Assembly: GCA_034370385.1 (NCBI GenBank)
Contig: JAXMKZ010000023.1
Location: 1 to 64,000 of the forward strand
Length of the DNA stretch: 64,000 nucleotides
Source of the DNA: Coriobacteriia bacterium
GTDB lineage: Bacteria > Actinomycetota > Coriobacteriia > Anaerosomatales > PHET01
Direction: 5' to 3'
Of this stretch, positions 15,900-48,543 are shown one piece after another (position 1 is the stretch's first letter; each line of letters starts with the position of its first letter). The position numbers were made by a program, and so were the translations under genes. The notes under the pieces were generated by a model. That model was not told the DNA's origin. It ran no database searches and saw nothing but the letters and a program-made list of their open reading frames with translations.

Positions 15900-17278
15900 G
15901 AGCCCGTCGCAGCGATCTCAGACAGCGCGACCAGCAGCTCTGGCCCTAATGACGTTATGTCGCCAGCCCCCATCGTGAGGACAAGGTCACCCGGGGCGAC
16001 GTGCGCCGCCAGGTACGGCACGACGTCAAGGCGGTGCGGCAGGTACGCCACCGCTGTCCGCGGCCGTTGCTCCAGAACAGACGTGACGAGCGTCTTGCCG
16101 TCGATTCCGGGGATCGGCGTCTCGCCCGCGCTGTAGACATCCATCAAGGCGACGCGGTCCGCAGACCCGAACGCCCTGCCGAACTCGCGCGCGAAGGCAG
16201 CCGTACGGCTGTAGCGGTGCGGCTGGAAGAGCGCCCAGACACGACGGTACCCGAGTCCGGCTGCAGCCTCGAGGGTTGCGGCGACCTCTGTGGGGTGGTG
16301 GGCGTAGTCGTCCACTATCGTCACTCCTGCCACTTCGCCGACGCGATCGAAGCGACGACGAACTCCGCTGAAGCCGGACAGGGCACGACCTGCATCGCTC
16401 AGGTCGAGACCCAGCGCGTGCGCACACGCGAGCGCGCCCGTGGCATTGCTCACCATGTGCAGGCCGGGGATACACGTCGACGCCTCGACCCGCTGCGCCC
16501 CGACCCAGGCGCAGAACCGATATCCCGCGCCGAGCCGGTCGATCACTTCGCAGCGCACATCGGCGTTGGCGGCGAACCCATAGGTGATGACCCGCCGTCC
16601 GGAGCCGGACGCCACGCCCAGGGCACCCTCATCATCGGCACATGCCACCACGAACCCGTTCTCCGCCGTCCGCGCTGTGAACTCCACGAAGGTGTGCGTT
16701 ATCTGCTCAAGAGACTCGTAGTGATCCATGTGGTCGGCTTCGACGTTGGTGAGCAGCGCAACGAACGGATCGAGGTAGACGAACGAGCCGTCGCTCTCAT
16801 CAGCCTCCACCACGTAGTGCTCGCCTGCGCCGTTCACCGCGTTGGTGTTGAATCCGTCGAGCTCGCCCCCGATGAGAAAGCTCGGCTCCATGCCCATTCC
16901 CGCGAGCATCGCGGCAACCATCGATGAGGTTGACGTCTTGCCGTGCGTCCCTGCTATCGCAATCGTCTTGCGGCCCTCGGCCAGATGGGCAAGCATCCGG
17001 GCGCGCGGCCACACCTCCACGCCGCGCCGGCGGGCCTCGGCAAGCTCAGGGTTGGCCTCGGGAATCGCGGACGACACCACAACGACCTCCGGATCGCCGA
17101 GGTTCGCCGCGTCGTGTCCGATGTGGATGGGAACGCCGGCTGCGGCCAAGGCACGTGAGTACCGGGACTCACGAAGATCACTCCCGGTCACCGCAACCCC
17201 GCGCTCGTGGAGCACGAGCGCAATGCCGCTCATGCCGGCACCGCCGACCCCGATGAAGTGTGCGTAGGTGCTCGGCAT
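15896..17278 (-). CDS. murC: UDP-N-acetylmuramate--L-alanine ligase
   Basis: Adds L-Ala to UDP-MurNAc, the first Mur-ligase step. The N-terminal Rossmann domain starts HFIGVGGAGMSGIALVLHERG. The ATP-binding P-loop is GTHGKTSTSSMVA, followed by ADESDGSF and the substrate-binding VDDYAHHPTEVAATLEAA. The C-terminal domain contains LFQPHRYSRTA. At 460 aa it is full length. It lies between murG (8-bp gap) and murB, a standard dcw position. ATG start. Confidence 0.97.
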   Translation of the reverse strand: MPSTYAHFIGVGGAGMSGIALVLHERGVAVTGSDLRESRYSRALAAAGVPIHIGHDAANLGDPEVVVVSSAIPEANPELAEARRRGVEVWPRARMLAHLAEGRKTIAIAGTHGKTSTSSMVAAMLAGMGMEPSFLIGGELDGFNTNAVNGAGEHYVVEADESDGSFVYLDPFVALLTNVEADHMDHYESLEQITHTFVEFTARTAENGFVVACADDEGALGVASGSGRRVITYGFAANADVRCEVIDRLGAGYRFCAWVGAQRVEASTCIPGLHMVSNATGALACAHALGLDLSDAGRALSGFSGVRRRFDRVGEVAGVTIVDDYAHHPTEVAATLEAAAGLGYRRVWALFQPHRYSRTAAFAREFGRAFGSADRVALMDVYSAGETPIPGIDGKTLVTSVLEQRPRTAVAYLPHRLDVVPYLAAHVAPGDLVLTMGAGDITSLGPELLVALSEIAATGS

Positions 17279-37981: not shown

Positions 37982-39067
37982 CTAGGTCGCCGCACGCGCC
38001 AACCGCGCCGCAACATCGCCCGAAGCGAACGCCGCAGCGAAGAAGGCGGGGTCATCGGCCAGCACCCGTCCCATGCTGGACACCTGGACGCCGCGCATCG
38101 ACGGCAGAGATGCGCCGGCAGCGGAATCCACCCGTTCGTGACGCACCCACACTCCCGCCTGCTCCAGGGCAGCGTCTATCACGGCCTTCTGCTCAGCGAT
38201 GACGTCGGGTACCGGCACCTTCGCAGGAGCAAGCGCGATGCGCGTCAGTGCGGCGATGGAGTGATGGCTGACTCCCCTGTGCCGTTGCCGAGAGTCGGCG
38301 AAGGAGACCCGAAGGCAGGCTATCGGCACGCCGTCGAGGGCTGCCACCGCATTGATGGCCTCCCCTTGCGAAACCCCGCCGTGCCCGAAGGGGGTGGCCG
38401 TCCCAACGACGCCCGGTCCGATCGCGACGATCAACACGGCGGCGCCACAGATGTGCGCGCCCACAAGCAGCCCGGAGTGTAGGTTGACGGACTCGAGCGT
38501 ACCGCCGAAGGCCTGGCCACACGTCACCGTGGCATCGATCAGCCCGGCGCTGATACTTGACCGAATCACGTCGGACAGACCGAGTGCCAGTGCAGCATCA
38601 TCGGTCATGCAGTACACGACAACGGCATCCGGGTCTGCCTGCTTGACTGCAGCGGCGACAAGAGGAACTTGGCTGTGCAGCCCGCAACACACAACGGGAA
38701 GGCCTCCGAGTGAATCAGCAGTGCGCAGGCGTTCGTGGTGGGGCGACTCCTGCGCCTCCGCAGCCAGCACGTCGACCTGAAGTGGCGAGTACCGTAGCTT
38801 CATGATGTGACCACCTGAGGCGACATCATGTATGACGCCCTCGCCACGACCGGCGCGCGCAACCACGAAATGGGCGCCGCCGGTTCCGAGCCCCAAGTCC
38901 ATCGCCGTGGTGTTGACCACGACGCGGTCACCCGGCCCGCATGCGCCGGACAACCCCAGGTAGCAGATCGCGTAGCCGACGCTGCCGTCATCCAGCGCCA
39001 CGGCAAGCCGTTGCATGCCGTCGTGCGCATCCTTGATCGCGCTGATCGTCCCCCAGACCAGTCGCAT
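37982..39067 (-). CDS. DUF3866 family protein
   Basis: A 361-aa soluble protein matching DUF3866: VWGTISAIKDAHDGMQRLAV and YAICYLGLSGACGPGDRVVVNTTAMDLGLGTGGAHFVV at the N-terminus, MKLRYSPLQVDVLAAEAQESPHHE in the middle, and GPGVVGTATPFGHGGVSQGEAINAVAALDG with SFADSRQRHRGVSHHS later. The family is widespread in Gram-positive bacteria near pyrG, xerD and M20 peptidases; its function is unknown. The start is ATG 39065-39067, 3 bp after the M20 peptidase stop. A role in nucleotide or peptide metabolism would be speculation. Confidence 0.88.
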   Translation of the reverse strand: MRLVWGTISAIKDAHDGMQRLAVALDDGSVGYAICYLGLSGACGPGDRVVVNTTAMDLGLGTGGAHFVVARAGRGEGVIHDVASGGHIMKLRYSPLQVDVLAAEAQESPHHERLRTADSLGGLPVVCCGLHSQVPLVAAAVKQADPDAVVVYCMTDDAALALGLSDVIRSSISAGLIDATVTCGQAFGGTLESVNLHSGLLVGAHICGAAVLIVAIGPGVVGTATPFGHGGVSQGEAINAVAALDGVPIACLRVSFADSRQRHRGVSHHSIAALTRIALAPAKVPVPDVIAEQKAVIDAALEQAGVWVRHERVDSAAGASLPSMRGVQVSSMGRVLADDPAFFAAAFASGDVAARLARAAT

Positions 39068-40205: not shown

Positions 40206-41819
<1,614 letters not shown>

Positions 41820-41884: not shown

Positions 41885-42922
41885 CTACTTCGACGATGCG
41901 ACATCGTCGCCATCGGATTGCCCACTATCGGATTCGAACCTCGTGGACGCGCCTTGAGAGGGCTCGCCACCGCCCAAGCGCCCCAGGCCATCAAGCCACC
42001 TCAGCGCAGGGTTGGCCTCGATAACGCGCGAGTAGCTGACGCGCTCGCTCGCTGCATTGGCGACGAACATGAGTGATGCGTAGACGAGCAGTCCCCACAC
42101 CGGCAGCCCCAGTACGATGAACATCCCCGCCACGGCGCCCATCGGATTGGCCCCCGCATCGCCCAACATCCCGCGCTCACCCAGGTCGCTTCGCCACACT
42201 GCGGCAACAGGGCCAAGGAGAAACACCGACAGGGCCAAGCCGTCCACGGCGATATGCCCGGTCGTGCTCCCGAACACGGTCGGTCGGTAGAGGGCCGCCA
42301 TCACCGTTGACGCCACACCCACCAAGGCGAGCAGTGAGTACGTCTTGAGCGCCCGCCCGGGGCGCAGATCCATGAGGTTCACGAAGTTCGAAGTCAGCGC
42401 GATCGCCGCCCCCGCCACGAGCGTGAGAGCGAATCGCACCCCCACTTGCGCAGCGTCAGATACCCGTGTCGTTCCCCACGGCGCGACCTGGGACACGATA
42501 GCAGCCGCCACCAGGCACGCCAGTCCGATGCCGACCAGTTTCAGGCCACCGGTCGTCAGGCGCGCCCGACGCATCGCGCCGAGGTGCCCCCGAAACCCGC
42601 GTGTCTCACCGGTCCCGAACGCATCGTCGACCATGCCCAGCGCGAACGCGACAAGCGCCAGAGGGCCCGCCAGCGTCAGCACCCGCAGCACGCTCGTATC
42701 AGATACTGCGGCTGCGGCAATGCCGCCCACGATGGCTGCGCCGGCCCAGATCAACCACACCACGCCAAGCCCGAGGTGGACCCGCGTGCCGCGGTAGTTC
42801 AACGCGGCCGCCTTGGACGCGGTCGCCAGCGCGGGCTCCAGCATGCGCATGAAGAGCCACGGGAGGAGCGCCCCAAGGAGTGCAGCGCCCAGAACCAATG
42901 CCGCGGGCGCTGCGGTGCTCAC
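41885..42922 (-). CDS. Divergent MraY/WecA-like (PNPT) membrane transferase
   Basis: A 345-aa, roughly ten-helix membrane protein of the polyprenyl-phosphate/UDP-sugar transferase superfamily. Recognisable motifs are [10 protein letters not shown] (Asp pair), [15 protein letters not shown] and [16 protein letters not shown]. The usual NxxNxxDGxDGL is altered: the second half reads DLRPGRA, so the second catalytic Asp position differs from MraY at 20982. It may therefore use another sugar nucleotide or have a changed mechanism. Start GTG 42920-42922 overlaps the upstream stop (GTGA). It sits with the phosphatase-like polytopic protein, murJ and GT2, suggesting a lipid-linked glycan role. Confidence 0.75.
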
Positions 42923-45231
42923 CGTACGTCCGCCCGTTGCGTGTCGGGCCTGCTTGGCGCATCGAGCAGACGCGCGAGCATGAGCCACGCCAAGGCCACG
43001 CCGATGTAGAACACCTCGAGCGCAGGCAGGACGATGCCCGAGTCCTCGGTGAAGTACGCCGCAAGGCCCGCGACAAGCGAGACGGTGATGGCATCAGCGA
43101 AGTTCGGGTTCTCGGCCAGCGTGTCCGCGAAATCGCCTTGCGGCCGCCACCTCATGAACGCCAAGAACGCCACGACCGCGATGAGGATGTAGGCCCAGCG
43201 TGTGTGGGTCAGAACGCGCATGTTGGTTTCCGCCTTGCGCGCCACGATCTTCCATAGCTCGATGACGCCTCCGGAGTCCGCAGACTCCAGCGCGCGCGCG
43301 AGGTGCGTCTTCTCGCCACCGCCGAACAGGTCGATGGCGGCGAACGCCCCCACGACCACGATGACGATCAGAGCAATCCAGACCCCGGTCTTGAAGGACA
43401 CGTGACGCCCGTTCATGAGCACCCAGGCGAGCACGAAGCCCACCGTGCCCCACGCCACCACACCCACGTTGGCCCCGAGGAAGGGTGCCGCACTGACGAC
43501 GACGATGACTACACCCACAACGGGCAGCCCGAGGCGTTTGAACACGCTCGTCCAACGCTTTCCGGCCCACTCATCGAACAGCATCGCAAGGCCGACTATC
43601 GTGGCCCCGAACAGTATCGCCGAGGCCTCATTGCCGATGCCGTAAAAACGAGCCGCCATCAGGGGCGAGTAGCCGAAGATATTGGTGAAGGATGCGGGTG
43701 CGCCGAGGAACTGGTCAACCAGAAGCACGAGGCTCGTGAGCAGTGAGAGCGCCGCTACCGGCACCCTCGGCGGGAGGAACTTCAGCGAGATGAGCGACAG
43801 CAGCCACAGTGCCGTCGCGGAGGCGAACAATCCGACCAGCACCTCAGCCACGGTTGCGGGCCACGGCATCCAGGCGAACATCAGCCACGACGAGACAGGG
43901 ATGCACAAGGCGTACAACAGCGCCGCGCCCAGCGCGTACACCCACGCAGTGCGCAACCTCGACGACCACAGCCGCGAGCGCACGATCACCATGCTCGAGA
44001 GCAGGAGTACGAGCACCGTGAACATGACGAAGCCGTTCACCACGCCGGGTTTCGCCGCATCGACCGAGACGGCGGTGCGATTCATCCGATCGAGAATCGC
44101 GATGCGTGCTTCAAGAGACTCCGGTGCGGCGAGAAGCGTCATCTCGTTGCCCAGAACCTGGACGGGGCGCTCGATTCCAAAGATATCGAGCACCGTCGCG
44201 GTCAGATCGAGGTTCGTCACGAATCCGGATCGCTGGGTTGAGCTCGACGTCAGGAACCCGGACCAACCTTCGCCCGACACGACGATGGGACCCAGCCCCT
44301 CGAGCCGACCGATACTCGGATCGAGCGTCGACTGTGAGGCGACGATCAAGGTGGCGTCAGGAAAGCGCTCCCCCGCCATCGCGACCACGTGATCGAGGGC
44401 CTCTACCGCGTGCTGGCGGTGCCGGGCAGCGATCGCGGTCGTCACCTGTGACTCGAATCTCGCTGCCCGGTACGCGTCGCCCGCATCGAGCACCACCAGC
44501 GCGGGTCCGGTGACGTCCATCGAGGCGCTCGCCACATCTTGAAGGGCCCGGTCGAATGCATCGGGGTCGGTCTCGATGCCGAACGGCGCGTTCGGGTCCT
44601 CACGGAGCAGCCGCGCGGACACATCTCCCGCAGCGACCAGTCCCTGCTGGTTCATGGCCGCCAATGCGGCCGCACGGACCTTGCGCTGCTCGCCGGTCAC
44701 GTACCCGACGTCGGAGTTTCCGACCGCCGCCGTAAGACCGCCCGCATCCTCGACGGCTTGGCCGAGTGTGCCGAGGACCACCTCGAACGAACGCTCGGCA
44801 TTCGCGCGTTGCGTGACGGGCATTCCGAGGAAGACGATCTGGTTGGCCCGCACCTGATAGCCGGTCGTGCGCCGAAACGCCTCGGCCGCGTCACCGACCT
44901 CGTAGCGCTCGTTGACGTGGTACGCGGCAGCAGCCTGAAAGTCGGGCACCGACCACGCGCCTGCCGAGATCGTGAGTGCACCCTCTAGGGGCGAAGACGG
45001 CTCACCGAGTCTCCTCGCGCGACTGCGCGCGTTGATATCGCCGATCGCCCCCTTGTCCGCGAGTTTCCAGATCGTCGGCGTCGACGTCGGCGTGACATCA
45101 CTCCACGTGAGGTAGGGAGCAAGCACTATGACGACGCGTTTCGCCTGAGGCTGCGCGGAGGCAGGGGTAGCGCTGAGCCACGCGCAAGAGAGCGCGGCAG
45201 CCAGCACTGCTGTCGTGAAGAGGCGTTTCAT
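42919..45231 (-). CDS. Large polytopic protein with extracytoplasmic phosphatase-like domain
   Basis: A 770-aa protein: a signal peptide (cleavage near ASAQ, about 27), an extracytoplasmic domain of about 380 residues (VVIVLAPYLTWSDVT, GALTISAGAWSVPDF, ALVVLDAGDAYRA, NLDLTATVLDIFGI) that resembles alkaline-phosphatase/phosphoglyceromutase-fold proteins, then some 9-10 membrane helices from about residue 395. The membrane part contains the striking GYSPLMAARFYGIGNEASAILFG. Catalytic metal ligands are not clearly recognisable, so activity is uncertain. It overlaps the PNPT gene by 4 nt and is divergent from murJ. Possible role: processing or ligation of an envelope polymer (inference). Confidence 0.7.
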   Translation of the reverse strand: MKRLFTTAVLAAALSCAWLSATPASAQPQAKRVVIVLAPYLTWSDVTPTSTPTIWKLADKGAIGDINARSRARRLGEPSSPLEGALTISAGAWSVPDFQAAAAYHVNERYEVGDAAEAFRRTTGYQVRANQIVFLGMPVTQRANAERSFEVVLGTLGQAVEDAGGLTAAVGNSDVGYVTGEQRKVRAAALAAMNQQGLVAAGDVSARLLREDPNAPFGIETDPDAFDRALQDVASASMDVTGPALVVLDAGDAYRAARFESQVTTAIAARHRQHAVEALDHVVAMAGERFPDATLIVASQSTLDPSIGRLEGLGPIVVSGEGWSGFLTSSSTQRSGFVTNLDLTATVLDIFGIERPVQVLGNEMTLLAAPESLEARIAILDRMNRTAVSVDAAKPGVVNGFVMFTVLVLLLSSMVIVRSRLWSSRLRTAWVYALGAALLYALCIPVSSWLMFAWMPWPATVAEVLVGLFASATALWLLSLISLKFLPPRVPVAALSLLTSLVLLVDQFLGAPASFTNIFGYSPLMAARFYGIGNEASAILFGATIVGLAMLFDEWAGKRWTSVFKRLGLPVVGVVIVVVSAAPFLGANVGVVAWGTVGFVLAWVLMNGRHVSFKTGVWIALIVIVVVGAFAAIDLFGGGEKTHLARALESADSGGVIELWKIVARKAETNMRVLTHTRWAYILIAVVAFLAFMRWRPQGDFADTLAENPNFADAITVSLVAGLAAYFTEDSGIVLPALEVFYIGVALAWLMLARLLDAPSRPDTQRADVR

Positions 45232-45329
45232 CGGTGCCTATGGTAGCGGATGCGCGTGATCGGCGCGGTGACGAGCGGTTGACGCCTTCGCGACGCCCGA
45301 ATCGTGCCATCTGAGCTCAGGTACACTGG

Positions 45330-45335
45330 TCACGG
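45330..45335 (+). promoter_or_regulatory. Possible -10 box of murJ
   Basis: TACACT in the 191-bp divergent gap between the polytopic-protein gene and murJ would start transcription near 45342. The -35 (GAATCG at 17 bp) is weak. The downstream leader has a 6-bp CGCGCG hairpin and a GGGAG just ahead of the ATC codons discussed for the murJ start. Confidence 0.35.
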
Positions 45336-45422
45336 CCCGCGCGACCTCGCGCGGCACGGTCAGCGCCGACGTACACGGGAGCCATCATCGCCGCGCCCTC
45401 GATAGCCCGTTCGACCGCCCTG

Positions 45423-47003
45423 ATGTCAGTCGCGACGCTGCTGTCACGCGTGACGGGTTTCGTGCGCATGTGGGCCATGGCGCTCGCGCTGGGAGCCAGC
45501 GGCCTCACGGCCGCCTACGGGGTCGCGAACAACGTCCCCAACATGATCTTCGAACTGGTTGCCGGAGGCATCCTCTCCTCCCTGTTCATCCCGACCTACC
45601 TCGAAGTCAAAGCCGCCCGCGGTCCCGAGGAGGCAGGGCGCTTCGCGAGCCGCGTGTTCACGCTCATCGTGCTCGCACTGGGAGTGGTGGCGGTTGCCGG
45701 AACGCTCTTCCCGGCGCCGTTCATCTGGACCCAGACCTTCCGCTCAAGCGGCGCTTCTGGCGCTGCCGTTCAAACCGCGGCTGCCTTCTTCTTCACGTTC
45801 TTCGCCATCCAGGTGGTCTTCTACGGCGGCGGGATGGTCATTCAGGGGCTGCTCAACGCGGAGCGCAAGTACCTGTGGCCCGCGCTTGGCCCGGTGTTCA
45901 ACAACCTCGTCGTCATCGCTACGATGCTGGCTGTCTATCGCATGCCGCTCAATCGGACGACGCTCGTCGTTCTCGCCGTCGGCACGACGCTGGGCGTCGT
46001 AGCCATGTTCGCCGTCATGATTCCCTCGCTCGTGCGCACCGGCGTGCGCTACACGCCCTCACTCGGGCTGAACGATCCCTATGTGCGAAGGATGCTGGTG
46101 CTGGCCGTTCCCACCGTCATCTACGTGGTGACGAACCTGGTAGCGGTCTCGTTTCGCAACGCCAGCGCACTGTCAGTCACCCCGAACGGGCCTGCGGTAC
46201 TGGCGTACGCGTGGACGTTCTACCAGCTTCCCTACGGCATACTGGCGGTCGCACTCGCCACCGCGGTCTTCACCGAGATGTCAGACGCTGCCGGCAAACA
46301 GGACATCGCCGCCTTTCGAACAACGTTCTCGAAGGGCCTGCGAGCCACAGCATTGCTGGTCATGCCTACGTCGGCTCTGCTTGTGGCGCTATCGACACCT
46401 CTTGCCACGCTCTACCTCATCGGACGCTTCAGCGCCACGGATGTCCCTGCGGTCGCCGGGGCGCTCAGATTCTGGGCACTGGGGCTCGTCTTCTTCGCCT
46501 GCATGATGTTCGTATTGCGTGCGTTCTACTCGCTCAAGGACACCCTGACACCGATGCTCACGAACCTGTTCACGACCACGCTGCACATCATCGGATACCT
46601 CGTTCTGACCACCGGGATCGGGGCATGGTCGGGGCTTGGGCTCAACGGAATACCCGTGGCCGACGGGCTCTTCTACGCGGTTCAGTTCGGCATCCTCGCC
46701 CTACTCCTGCGCAAACGCGTCGGCGAGCTCGATATGCGCGGTTTCATGTCCACCTTCGCACGCACCATTGTGGCTTCGATCGCAGCCGGCGTAGTCGCTT
46801 GGTATGTATCAGGTGCCCTGGCCGGTACCGGACCGAGCGTGGCTCAAGCCCTCCTGCAAGTCACCGTGGCCGGCATCGCCGGGCTCGCTACCGCCTTTGT
46901 CGTCGCCCGACTGCTGCGCATCGAAGAGATGGCGATCGTCGCCGAGCTGGGCACCAGGGTCACACGCCGCCTGAGCGGCTCGAAGAAGGGTGATGACACG
47001 TGA
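45423..47003 (+). CDS. murJ: MurJ/MviN-family lipid II flippase
   Basis: A 526-aa, 14-helix MOP-superfamily exporter that flips lipid-linked peptidoglycan precursor. Features are SRVTGFVRMWAMALALGAS near the N-terminus, AYGVANNVPNMIFELVAGGILSSLFIPTYLE, and the FYSLKDTLTPMLTNL region. From this ATG only eight residues precede SRVTGF, fewer than in MurJ proteins. The frame stays open upstream and encodes a family-like N-terminus (PSIARSTAL before the Met), but offers no ATG, GTG or TTG back to about 45366, so the start is doubtful. It overlaps the GT2 gene by 4 nt. Confidence 0.9.
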   Translation: MSVATLLSRVTGFVRMWAMALALGASGLTAAYGVANNVPNMIFELVAGGILSSLFIPTYLEVKAARGPEEAGRFASRVFTLIVLALGVVAVAGTLFPAPFIWTQTFRSSGASGAAVQTAAAFFFTFFAIQVVFYGGGMVIQGLLNAERKYLWPALGPVFNNLVVIATMLAVYRMPLNRTTLVVLAVGTTLGVVAMFAVMIPSLVRTGVRYTPSLGLNDPYVRRMLVLAVPTVIYVVTNLVAVSFRNASALSVTPNGPAVLAYAWTFYQLPYGILAVALATAVFTEMSDAAGKQDIAAFRTTFSKGLRATALLVMPTSALLVALSTPLATLYLIGRFSATDVPAVAGALRFWALGLVFFACMMFVLRAFYSLKDTLTPMLTNLFTTTLHIIGYLVLTTGIGAWSGLGLNGIPVADGLFYAVQFGILALLLRKRVGELDMRGFMSTFARTIVASIAAGVVAWYVSGALAGTGPSVAQALLQVTVAGIAGLATAFVVARLLRIEEMAIVAELGTRVTRRLSGSKKGDDT

Positions 47004-47677
47004 TGATCGCCGCGCTCATCCCGGCGTTCCAAGAGGCCGAGCGTATCGGCGCCACCGTAACCGCGGTGCTGGCGCTACCGGGTATATCCCGCTGCGTGGT
47101 CGTCGATGACGCATCGGCCGACGACACCGCCGACATCGCTCATGCGGCCGGAGCCAAGGTCGTCCGCCTGGCGTTCAACGTCGGCAAGGGAGCGACGCTG
47201 GAAGCGGGTGCAGCACGGGTGGCCGATGCCGACGTGATCCTTCTCCTTGACGCGGACTTGGGCGAGACGGCTTCACAGGCCACCCTCTTGCTGGAGCCCG
47301 TGCTGGCCGGGCGGGCCGACATGAGCGTTGCGACGTTCCCACCGCCCGTCGGCAAGGCGGGGTTCGGACTCGTCAAAGGCATGGCTCGGTCCGGCATCCG
47401 GAGAATGGGCGGCGGGTTCGAGGCGATGGCCCCTCTGTCGGGCCAGCGTGCGCTCACCCGCGCGTGCCTAGAGGCGACACGCCCGTTCGCATCGGGGTAT
47501 GGCGTCGAGGTCGCCCTCACGGTCCGAGCCCTGCGCAAGGGACTGCGTGTGGTCGAGGTGCCTACCCAGATGGCGCACGCGGCCACGGGACGGGACGCGG
47601 CGGGGTTCACCCATCGCGGGCGGCAGTTCGTGCACGTCTCGATCGCGCTCACGAAGCTGGCGTTCGAGAAGCGCTAG
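47000..47677 (+). CDS. GT2-family glycosyltransferase
   Basis: A 225-aa cytoplasmic GT-A-fold transferase: ALIPAFQEAERIGATVTAVL, the nucleotide-binding VVVDDASADDTADIA, FNVGKGATLEAG, and the metal-binding DAD in VILLLDADLGETA. There is no membrane anchor. It resembles dolichyl-phosphate-sugar and glucosyl-3-phosphoglycerate synthase-type GT2 enzymes; the substrate cannot be read. Start GTG 47000 or the next codon ATG 47003. It is translationally coupled to murJ, suggesting that its product feeds the flipped lipid intermediate or a related glycan. Confidence 0.88.
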   Translation: MMIAALIPAFQEAERIGATVTAVLALPGISRCVVVDDASADDTADIAHAAGAKVVRLAFNVGKGATLEAGAARVADADVILLLDADLGETASQATLLLEPVLAGRADMSVATFPPPVGKAGFGLVKGMARSGIRRMGGGFEAMAPLSGQRALTRACLEATRPFASGYGVEVALTVRALRKGLRVVEVPTQMAHAATGRDAAGFTHRGRQFVHVSIALTKLAFEKR

Positions 47678-47694: not shown

Positions 47695-48543
47695 CTACGG
47701 CGTGATCTCAGGTGGATCCGGAAACGCCGCGTTCGCACCCTCGCCCGTGCCGTAGATGCCCGGTTTCGAGCCCGTGAACAACGCAACGAGGGTGTAGCTC
47801 CCTACGTCGTTTCCAAGGGTGTCGAACGCCGAGATCCCCGCATCATCGGCTGCCTGCGTGATACCCGGGTCTTCCCCCTCGACCTGGGCGGCAACGCCGA
47901 CGCCGAACTCCTGAAACGCCGTCGCCAGAGCGATGCCGGCAGGCTCGACCTTACCCTGCGTCATCGCAAGATCCAGCAGGCCGACGACGTCCATCCCATC
48001 GGTGAAGCCGTCGATTCTCAGTGCCCCCGCCTCAACCAACGCGGCGGTCACCGGCCTCGTCGTCTCCGCAGACGCCCACTCGGCCACAAGCGAGGTCACG
48101 ACGCTTTCGAGCAACTCGCCGTCGGATGACACGAGGCTCTCCACTTGCGAGCGCACATCGACGTCTTCGAGCCCAAGGTCCGGCTGTAGAAGCACGACAC
48201 CTGCGACCGCCCCGCCAGCTCCCTCGACCGCTTCGAGCGCCGCTTCGCCACCGCTCGCCCTCCCGCCGTTGGTGACGACGATGACCGTCTTGCCCTCGAG
48301 TCGTCCGCGCACCCACTCATCGGTCAGGGTCGAGCCGAACGCATCGAGCACCTCGTTGTCCGCAGACAGGCCGCTGTTCTCCTCACGGAGCTCGGCGAAC
48401 TGCTTCTCCAAGCCCTTGACGAGCGCGTTCTGCTGGCGCGAGACCGCTCCACTCTGCACCACGAGACCACCAAGAATCAGTCCCAGCGCCAGAGCAAGAA
48501 ACAGGGCCACAAGAGATGCGATGTGGTAGCGAAGGTTGTACAC
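47695..48543 (-). CDS. steB: SteB/MctB-family membrane protein
   Basis: A 282-aa protein: N-terminal YNLRYHIASLVALFLALALGLILGGLVVQ (one membrane helix, about 8-30), a coiled coil (RQQNALVKGLEKQFAELREENSGLSADNEVLDAF) and an extracytoplasmic alpha/beta domain. It belongs to the MctB (DUF3186) family: MctB of M. tuberculosis is linked to copper resistance, and SteB of Corynebacterium works with SteA in cell separation by controlling a RipA hydrolase. The steA stop is 15 bp upstream. Convergent with the GT2 gene, only 17 bp apart, with no terminator seen between them. Confidence 0.88.
   Translation of the reverse strand: MYNLRYHIASLVALFLALALGLILGGLVVQSGAVSRQQNALVKGLEKQFAELREENSGLSADNEVLDAFGSTLTDEWVRGRLEGKTVIVVTNGGRASGGEAALEAVEGAGGAVAGVVLLQPDLGLEDVDVRSQVESLVSSDGELLESVVTSLVAEWASAETTRPVTAALVEAGALRIDGFTDGMDVVGLLDLAMTQGKVEPAGIALATAFQEFGVGVAAQVEGEDPGITQAADDAGISAFDTLGNDVGSYTLVALFTGSKPGIYGTGEGANAAFPDPPEITP

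Follow-up and report, generated by a model that had tools for sequence, protein, structure and literature searches.

In this study, we analyzed a 64,000-nucleotide stretch of contig JAXMKZ010000023.1 from a Coriobacteriia bacterium (hereafter, the window), in which four open reading frames (ORFs) lie between the genes for the cell separation proteins SteA and SteB and the CTP synthase gene pyrG. The ORFs encode a PNPT-type enzyme (protein A), a large membrane protein with a phosphatase-like outer domain (protein B), the flippase MurJ (protein C), and a family 2 glycosyltransferase (GT2; protein D). We found that A, B, and D form one evolutionary unit with SteA and SteB, and that MurJ is probably not part of this unit. 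On balance, and judging from sequence, we consider it probable that the five proteins constitute one inherited cell-envelope unit, which would link a polyprenol-linked envelope glycan to SteAB-controlled cell separation. No description of this module was found in the open PMC papers that were searched, and it is apparently undescribed. The features of the locus, in window coordinates, are as follows.

40206-41819, minus strand: pyrG (CTP synthase), ATG at 41819, co-directional with and downstream of B-A; conserved flank
41885-42922, minus strand: A, 345 amino acids from the GTG at 42922, predicted sugar-1-phosphate transferase in an unnamed subfamily of the PNPT superfamily
42919-45231, minus strand: B, 770 amino acids
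42952-44079, minus strand: membrane domain of B (residues about 385-760), with invariant residues predicted to face outward
43627-43650, minus strand: motif RFYGIGNE of B (R528-E535), R528 and G531 in 86/86 sequences, aligned with the R..G..N motif of Wzy_C
44122-45144, minus strand: outer domain of B (residues about 30-370), extracytoplasmic, alkaline-phosphatase-superfamily-like
45232-45422: divergent intergenic region of 191 bp between B-A(-pyrG) and C-D
45423-47003, plus strand: C, MurJ (TIGR01695)
47000-47677, plus strand: D, GT2 glycosyltransferase, overlapping C by 4 nucleotides (GTGA)
47695-48543, minus strand: SteB/MctB (PF11382, 97 bits, above cut-off)
48559-about 49680, minus strand: SteA (NF040608, 486 bits, above cut-off), adjacent to SteB

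All four ORFs reported by the initial annotation are present at their positions, as are the two 4-nucleotide overlaps and the divergence of the two gene pairs from the 191-bp region. The overlap of A and B, like that of C and D, reads GTGA, and involves the GTG start of A at 42922 and the end of B. The reading frame of A remains open to 42988 on the minus strand, and the motifs of A are numbered on the resulting 367-amino-acid ORF. A consensus scan of the B-C intergenic region did not find a sigma-70-like promoter. SteB and SteA are on one flank of the four ORFs and PyrG is on the other. The base composition (GC) is uniform across the locus, which therefore carries no sign of a recent insert.

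The arrangement of genes at this locus is far beyond chance. The order pyrG-A-B|C-D-steB-steA-recN-nadK-tlyA-dxs is found at 36 loci of same-order genomes, a few of which are truncated at the end of a contig, and many other lineages have recN-steA-steB-D-A-pyrG, without MurJ and without B. The module is extended by additional GT4, GT2, and PMT-type genes in other classes. Protein D also occurs as a single polypeptide with B, encoded between steB and A-pyrG (L145), and as a single polypeptide with A, encoded between steB and pyrG (L169). In a fixed sample of 296 Actinomycetota genomes, with SteA counted over its cut-off and taxa treated as coded families, A is present in 116 genomes, B in 116, and SteA in 126. 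The joint presence of A and SteA (111 genomes), A and B (102), and B and SteA (106) is significant (Fisher test, P from 2e−57 to 6e−47, with 2e−57 for the A-SteA pair, all without correction for shared ancestry), and the absence of any co-occurrence, an outcome that the initial annotation had allowed for, is hence excluded. Where A and SteA are located on one contig, they are within 10 kb of each other in 98 of 100 genomes.

The genes of the module are also lost together. In eight genomes (G004, G009, G017, G019, G022, G033, G037, and G049), SteA (over the cut-off), A, and B are absent genome-wide. Five loci (L176, L177, L178, L181, and L182) show the order recN-MurJ-pyrG; steA, steB, D, A, and B have left no trace in them, and the genome-wide scores of D agree with the absence of the module at the loss loci. 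Two other loci retain a single remnant. At L180, the remnant is a D gene that overlaps MurJ, and its product has lost H193, T196, H205, and Q209, all of which are invariant in the 36 other D sequences. At L183, the remnant is A, which has lost catalytic Asp residues. On the tree of RecN, PyrG, MurJ, and NadK, these loci represent five separate losses within the order, three of them complete and two partial (L180 and L183). The pyrG gene is retained after the loss of the module. Given that the losses are joint and that MurJ is kept, SteA-SteB-D-A-B is the evolutionary unit, and MurJ is outside it.

The direction of these changes differs from that proposed in the initial annotation, in which the module was inserted between steAB and pyrG and interrupted an ancestral steA-steB-pyrG order. 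Instead, SteA, SteB, D, and A form a widespread unit whose members are lost together, and the supposedly interrupted order is found alone mainly in mycobacteria-like genomes. We use this label, which is based on locus arrangement and on genome sizes of 4 to 7 Mb, for the one family that accounts for most cases of SteA without A; the single locus read in it (L175) has recN-steA-steB-pyrG, the arrangement known from mycobacteria. Because SteA without A is largely restricted to this family and steA-steB-D-A is widespread, the short mycobacterial locus is probably a reduced state. Insertion or horizontal transfer into steAB-pyrG was rejected on the basis of the uniform GC together with phylum-wide conservation. 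Within the class of the window, nearly all sampled genomes outside its order (families f17 to f19) are without A, B, and SteA, and the whole module appears to have been lost there. Additionally, two loci from 8- to 10-Mb genomes without SteA have an A-like gene directly after recN (L173, 7807-8559; L174, 7133-7897), with pyrG further on in L174, and these loci may represent a still more reduced module. At L051 (14782-16831, genome G021), steA is in tandem with another SteA-like ORF, which is partial (182 bits).

Protein A is, as judged from its modeled fold and its motifs, a member of the PNPT superfamily with the MraY/DPAGT1 fold, and its predicted catalytic Asp cluster is retained phylum-wide. 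The protein has no Pfam or NCBIfam match, and none of its 30 relatives has a PNPT-type Pfam match. Searching PDB chains and Pfam with the sequences of A and B was of no help, and an alignment of A with the single MraY encoded in the window covered only the GDxG stretch. Because sequence searches of A were uninformative, we relied on fold and family profiles. The AlphaFold2 model of A has a pLDDT of 89, and its only PDB matches at a Foldseek probability of 1.00 are MraY, the PNPT relative 4j72, and DPAGT1 (TM-score about 0.5). The phylum-wide profile of A matches the WecA-like PNPTs of the order with an hhalign Prob of 97.8, while control comparisons to unrelated membrane families yield about 0.1. 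In common with MraY, WecA/TagO, and DPAGT1, protein A has the fold, the DD motif (DD121-122), the N..NLxD motif (within NxxNLxDxxPGRxxK, 201-215), and the GDxG motif (within GDxGxN, 276-281). Across 86 sequences of A, sampled phylum-wide, D122 and D207 are present in 86/86, and D121 and D277 in 85/86, the exception being the orphan A of L183. In contrast to these families, A has NxxNLxDxxPGRxxK in place of NxxNxxDGxDGLA, and is below Pfam detection. Neither the DGxDGLA motif nor the HxxH-type loop of bacterial MraY/WecA was recognized in it, and we therefore did not file A as MraY or WecA. In the window's genome, A is the third PNPT, besides the MraY of the dcw cluster and a WecA-like protein. 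No relative of A was found in the viral contigs that were searched. Protein A would thus represent a PNPT subfamily that is missed by Pfam and NCBIfam.

Protein B consists of a signal peptide, an alkaline-phosphatase-like domain, and 10 to 11 transmembrane helices, as indicated by its alignment, its AlphaFold2 model (pLDDT 86.6), and Foldseek. This architecture agrees with the initial annotation in the number of helices (about ten) and in the motif ARFYGIGNE, which is real and conserved. The annotation had also proposed an extracytoplasmic phosphatase-like domain, and had suggested structure prediction to look for metal sites or a ligase-like fold. The fold of the domain is supported, in that the N-terminal domain of the whole-protein model accounts for matches to sulfatases, iPGM, and YejM (E about 1e−4) and Pfam SGSH_C matches 26 of 50 members weakly. 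A functional phosphatase is not, given that the DHG metal motif is found in 0/86 B sequences from across the phylum and the first metal Asp in 31/86. In part of family f12, the outer domain is much reduced, with only remnants left, while the membrane domain stays.

The membrane domain resembles Wzy polymerases and O-antigen ligases by profile. With the phylum-wide profile, hhalign aligns it colinearly to the order's Wzy_C/O-antigen-ligase proteins (PF04932 members) over 348 columns with a Prob of 94.2, while the reversed profile yields 2.5 and none of the column-shuffled, SEDS, MurJ, and PNPT controls exceeds about 0.1. The invariant Arg in the R..G..N motif of Wzy corresponds in the alignment to R528 of B. 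R528, G531, and G586 are invariant, H643 and D730 are conserved in 85/86 sequences, and R665/K666 are invariant or nearly so. From the helix order in the model and the positive-inside rule (the Arg/Lys-rich short loops are on the opposite side), we infer that these residues face outward; in the O-antigen ligase and Wzy families of the GT-C1 clan, the conserved residues are likewise on the outer face (PMC10920833). A long outer loop near the C-terminus is also common to B and these families. Unlike them, B is fused to an alkaline-phosphatase-like domain lacking the metal site, has a conserved set of its own (R528, H643, R665/K666, and D730), and has no Pfam match. In the Foldseek search with the whole-protein model, the N-terminal domain ranked first and WaaL (7TPG) was not in the top 50. 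B is probably a new family of membrane glycosyltransferases, as far as its sequence profile indicates. As a relative of SEDS proteins (FtsW/RodA), B was rejected, since hhalign gave no signal.

Copies of B outside the standard arrangement were also observed. A scan of genome contigs with B returned a single close relative (L031) and a short match that is doubtful (L032). Some same-order genomes have a second B paralogue of greater divergence at loci without A, D, or SteAB (L042, L047, L056, and L058), and at L119 (7315-13390) an A gene is flanked directly by two B genes in tandem. In some members of the phylum, as at two loci (L109, 7915-10122; L111, 8392-10653), B is away from steAB, beside parA/parB-, rsmG-, and yidC-like genes near dnaA, with a D-Ala-D-Ala-ligase-like gene nearby; the gene names at these two loci come from reading the ORFs.

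Protein D is a GT2 enzyme, as the initial annotation had it, of the type of glucosyl-3-phosphoglycerate synthases (GpgS) and dolichol-phosphate mannose synthase, which are its nearest solved relatives. It has no transmembrane helices, and its motifs are DxD84-86, GQR148-150, GxE168-170, HxxTG193-197, and HRxxQ205-209. The two relatives align with D over most of its length and share the DxD and GYGVE motifs. In comparison to them, D is shorter, has no transmembrane helices, carries its own invariant HxxTG...HRxxQ tail, and scores far below the equivalog cut-offs.

Protein C is MurJ, with 297.1 bits to TIGR01695 (curated equivalog cut-off, 235.55), and is unusual only in its location within the module. 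In genomes of the order, the strong MurJ at the module locus is usually the only one. The window's genome has a second MurJ, which is in an exopolysaccharide cluster. MurJ is present in 7/7 loci that lost module genes, and many lineages with the module have no MurJ in the locus. Given the constant retention of MurJ and its usual status as the sole strong MurJ, we read C as the ordinary lipid II flippase, probably a housekeeping protein lodged in the locus and not an obligate part of the module. As to the initial annotation, a MurJ-type flippase is indeed in the set; its role as a dedicated part is not supported. The scenario that was to count against a module, in which MurJ is the sole lipid II flippase and its neighbors act in unrelated processes, is likewise half right, in that MurJ is probably a housekeeping protein, but the neighbors are mutually linked. 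The exopolysaccharide-type cluster of the window's genome (L107, 501-18076, G000:C11) encodes a MurJ-family flippase of its own and a Wzy_C protein, and its further ORFs are deacetylase-, Wzz-, and glycosyltransferase-like.

The shared inheritance and loss of these genes suggests that the synthesis of a sugar chain may be coupled to cell separation. In the proposed pathway, A would prime polyprenyl phosphate, and D, a cytoplasmic GT2, would add a sugar to the lipid product of A or make a polyprenyl-phosphate sugar. The lipid-linked glycan would then cross the membrane by MurJ or another flippase, the embedded MurJ being presumably the ordinary lipid II flippase. On the outer face, B would act as a Wzy/O-antigen-ligase-like transferase that joins the glycan to itself or to a wall acceptor, and its phosphatase-like domain, without a metal site, may serve in binding or docking. 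SteA and SteB would couple glycan synthesis to the splitting of septal peptidoglycan. The initial annotation had ascribed to the set the parts needed to start, flip, and process a lipid-linked sugar. A PNPT-type initiator, a GT2, and a polymerase- or ligase-type membrane protein are all there, and only MurJ does not hold up as a dedicated part. The separation of the module from dcw was seen correctly, in that the MraY and MurG of the genome are in dcw.

Several observations weigh against a glycan pathway coupled to SteAB. No dedicated flippase was identified for the module. A is without the second Asp of DGxDGLA and a recognizable HxxH loop, and its substrate is not readable from its motifs. 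In part of the phylum, B is away from the SteA locus; where A and B share a contig, B is no more than 10 kb from A in 40 of 49 cases. In the mycobacteria-like genomes, SteAB is retained although A and D are missing, and it is independent of the module there. The D-B and D-A fusions are from one genome each, and assembly error is possible, though both frames are continuous. The likeness of B to Wzy is seen only with the phylum-wide profile (the order-only profile has a Prob of 0.7), and of the three canonical residues of O-antigen ligases on the outer face, two diphosphate-binding Arg and a catalytic His (or Asp/Glu), only one Arg aligns in B, with H643, R665/K666, and D730 not aligned to the other two positions. 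Given that the match needs a diverse profile and that the second Arg and the His have no clear counterpart, we call B only Wzy/O-antigen-ligase-like, short of a proven member.

Other explanations of the locus could account for part of these data. A and D could act on peptidoglycan precursors, either to make a variant lipid I/II or to modify lipid II for use at the septum, and B would be the transferase responsible for the modification. The association with SteAB, which controls septal peptidoglycan hydrolysis (PMC6705760, PMC9897464), the neighboring MurJ, and the MraY-like fold of A all fit such a role, which we nevertheless regard as unlikely: MraY and MurG are already encoded in the dcw cluster of the genome, A is without the MraY-type signature motifs, and both MurJ and an MraY-type PNPT persist in the genomes from which the module was lost. 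A dedicated pathway that includes MurJ, with C flipping the lipid-linked glycan of the module and another protein flipping lipid II, would explain the MurJ-D overlap in the window, the position of MurJ next to A or SteB in several classes, and the second MurJ of the window's genome. We doubt this arrangement as well, since the second MurJ is in the exopolysaccharide cluster, the one strong MurJ in most genomes of the order is that of the module locus, and MurJ both outlasts the module at every loss locus and is missing from many module loci.

It is improbable that genes of separate envelope processes are simply kept together between recN and pyrG without cooperating. The conservation of the whole dxs-tlyA-nadK-recN...pyrG-pepT-ald-xerD stretch, unrelated housekeeping genes included, is what such passive synteny would produce. 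This explanation is largely refuted by the joint departure of steA, steB, D, A, and B from loci where the flanking housekeeping genes and MurJ stay, and it is also at odds with the fusions of D to A and to B, the decay of orphan copies, and the phylum-wide co-occurrence of A and SteA. We give very little weight to an active B whose substrate is a lipid or glycan, whether as a phosphatase or as an EptA/LtaS/PIG-N-type phosphoglycol transferase. The Foldseek and SGSH_C matches of its N-terminal domain would be in keeping with that activity; the lack of the DHG motif, the scarcity of the first metal Asp, the persistence of the membrane domain where only remnants of the outer domain are left, and the location of the invariant residues in the membrane domain speak against it. 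B as a working phosphatase was rejected on the basis of the metal site, which is missing in all 86 sequences.

The preferred reading, a glycan module tied to SteAB, bears on an open question about SteA. According to published work, SteAB controls septal peptidoglycan hydrolysis and cell separation in Corynebacterium and Mycobacterium (PMC6705760, PMC9897464, PMC12977500), where its location at the septum and its activation of a RipA-type hydrolase are known, and SteB binds and activates RipA (PMC12977500, PMC9897464). In a 2026 structural paper, CgSteA is stabilized by UDP and GDP, and its ligand is stated to be an open question (PMC12977500); the word "glycosyl" is absent from the main text of that paper. 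SteAB has also been reported downstream of spo0A in Clostridia. The locus of the window resembles the SteA-SteB system of Mycobacteriales (the RipA/RipC-FtsEX pathway) in having SteA and SteB above family cut-offs and in the recN-steA-steB-pyrG context, and it differs from the mycobacteria-like SteAB locus, which has no D, A, or B. The covered parts of the SteAB literature do not mention a glycosyltransferase or PNPT beside SteAB. As proteins that are inherited and lost together with SteA and occur as fusions, the glycosyltransferase and the PNPT are concrete candidate sources of the SteA ligand, and we hypothesize that the nucleotide sensed by SteA is a by-product or donor of D or A. More tentatively, SteAB may have begun as the sensor and output arm of the module, a possibility that we rate as rather less than even. 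In such a scheme, SteA would read the UDP/GDP or nucleotide-sugar that D and A turn over. SteB would release septal splitting only during glycan synthesis, and mycobacteria would have retained the regulator while losing the genes for synthesis. A would be a new PNPT subfamily, and B a new family of membrane glycosyltransferases that carry a pseudo-phosphatase domain. In many Actinomycetota other than mycobacteria, the module also suggests an envelope glycan.

Two other features of the window were recorded. ARAGORN calls a tRNA-Val at 17147-17244, within a murC-like ORF and on the same strand; the call is without Rfam confirmation and is probably false. A gene for a 361-amino-acid protein (37982-39067), located between pepT and ald, is conserved in nearly all relatives.

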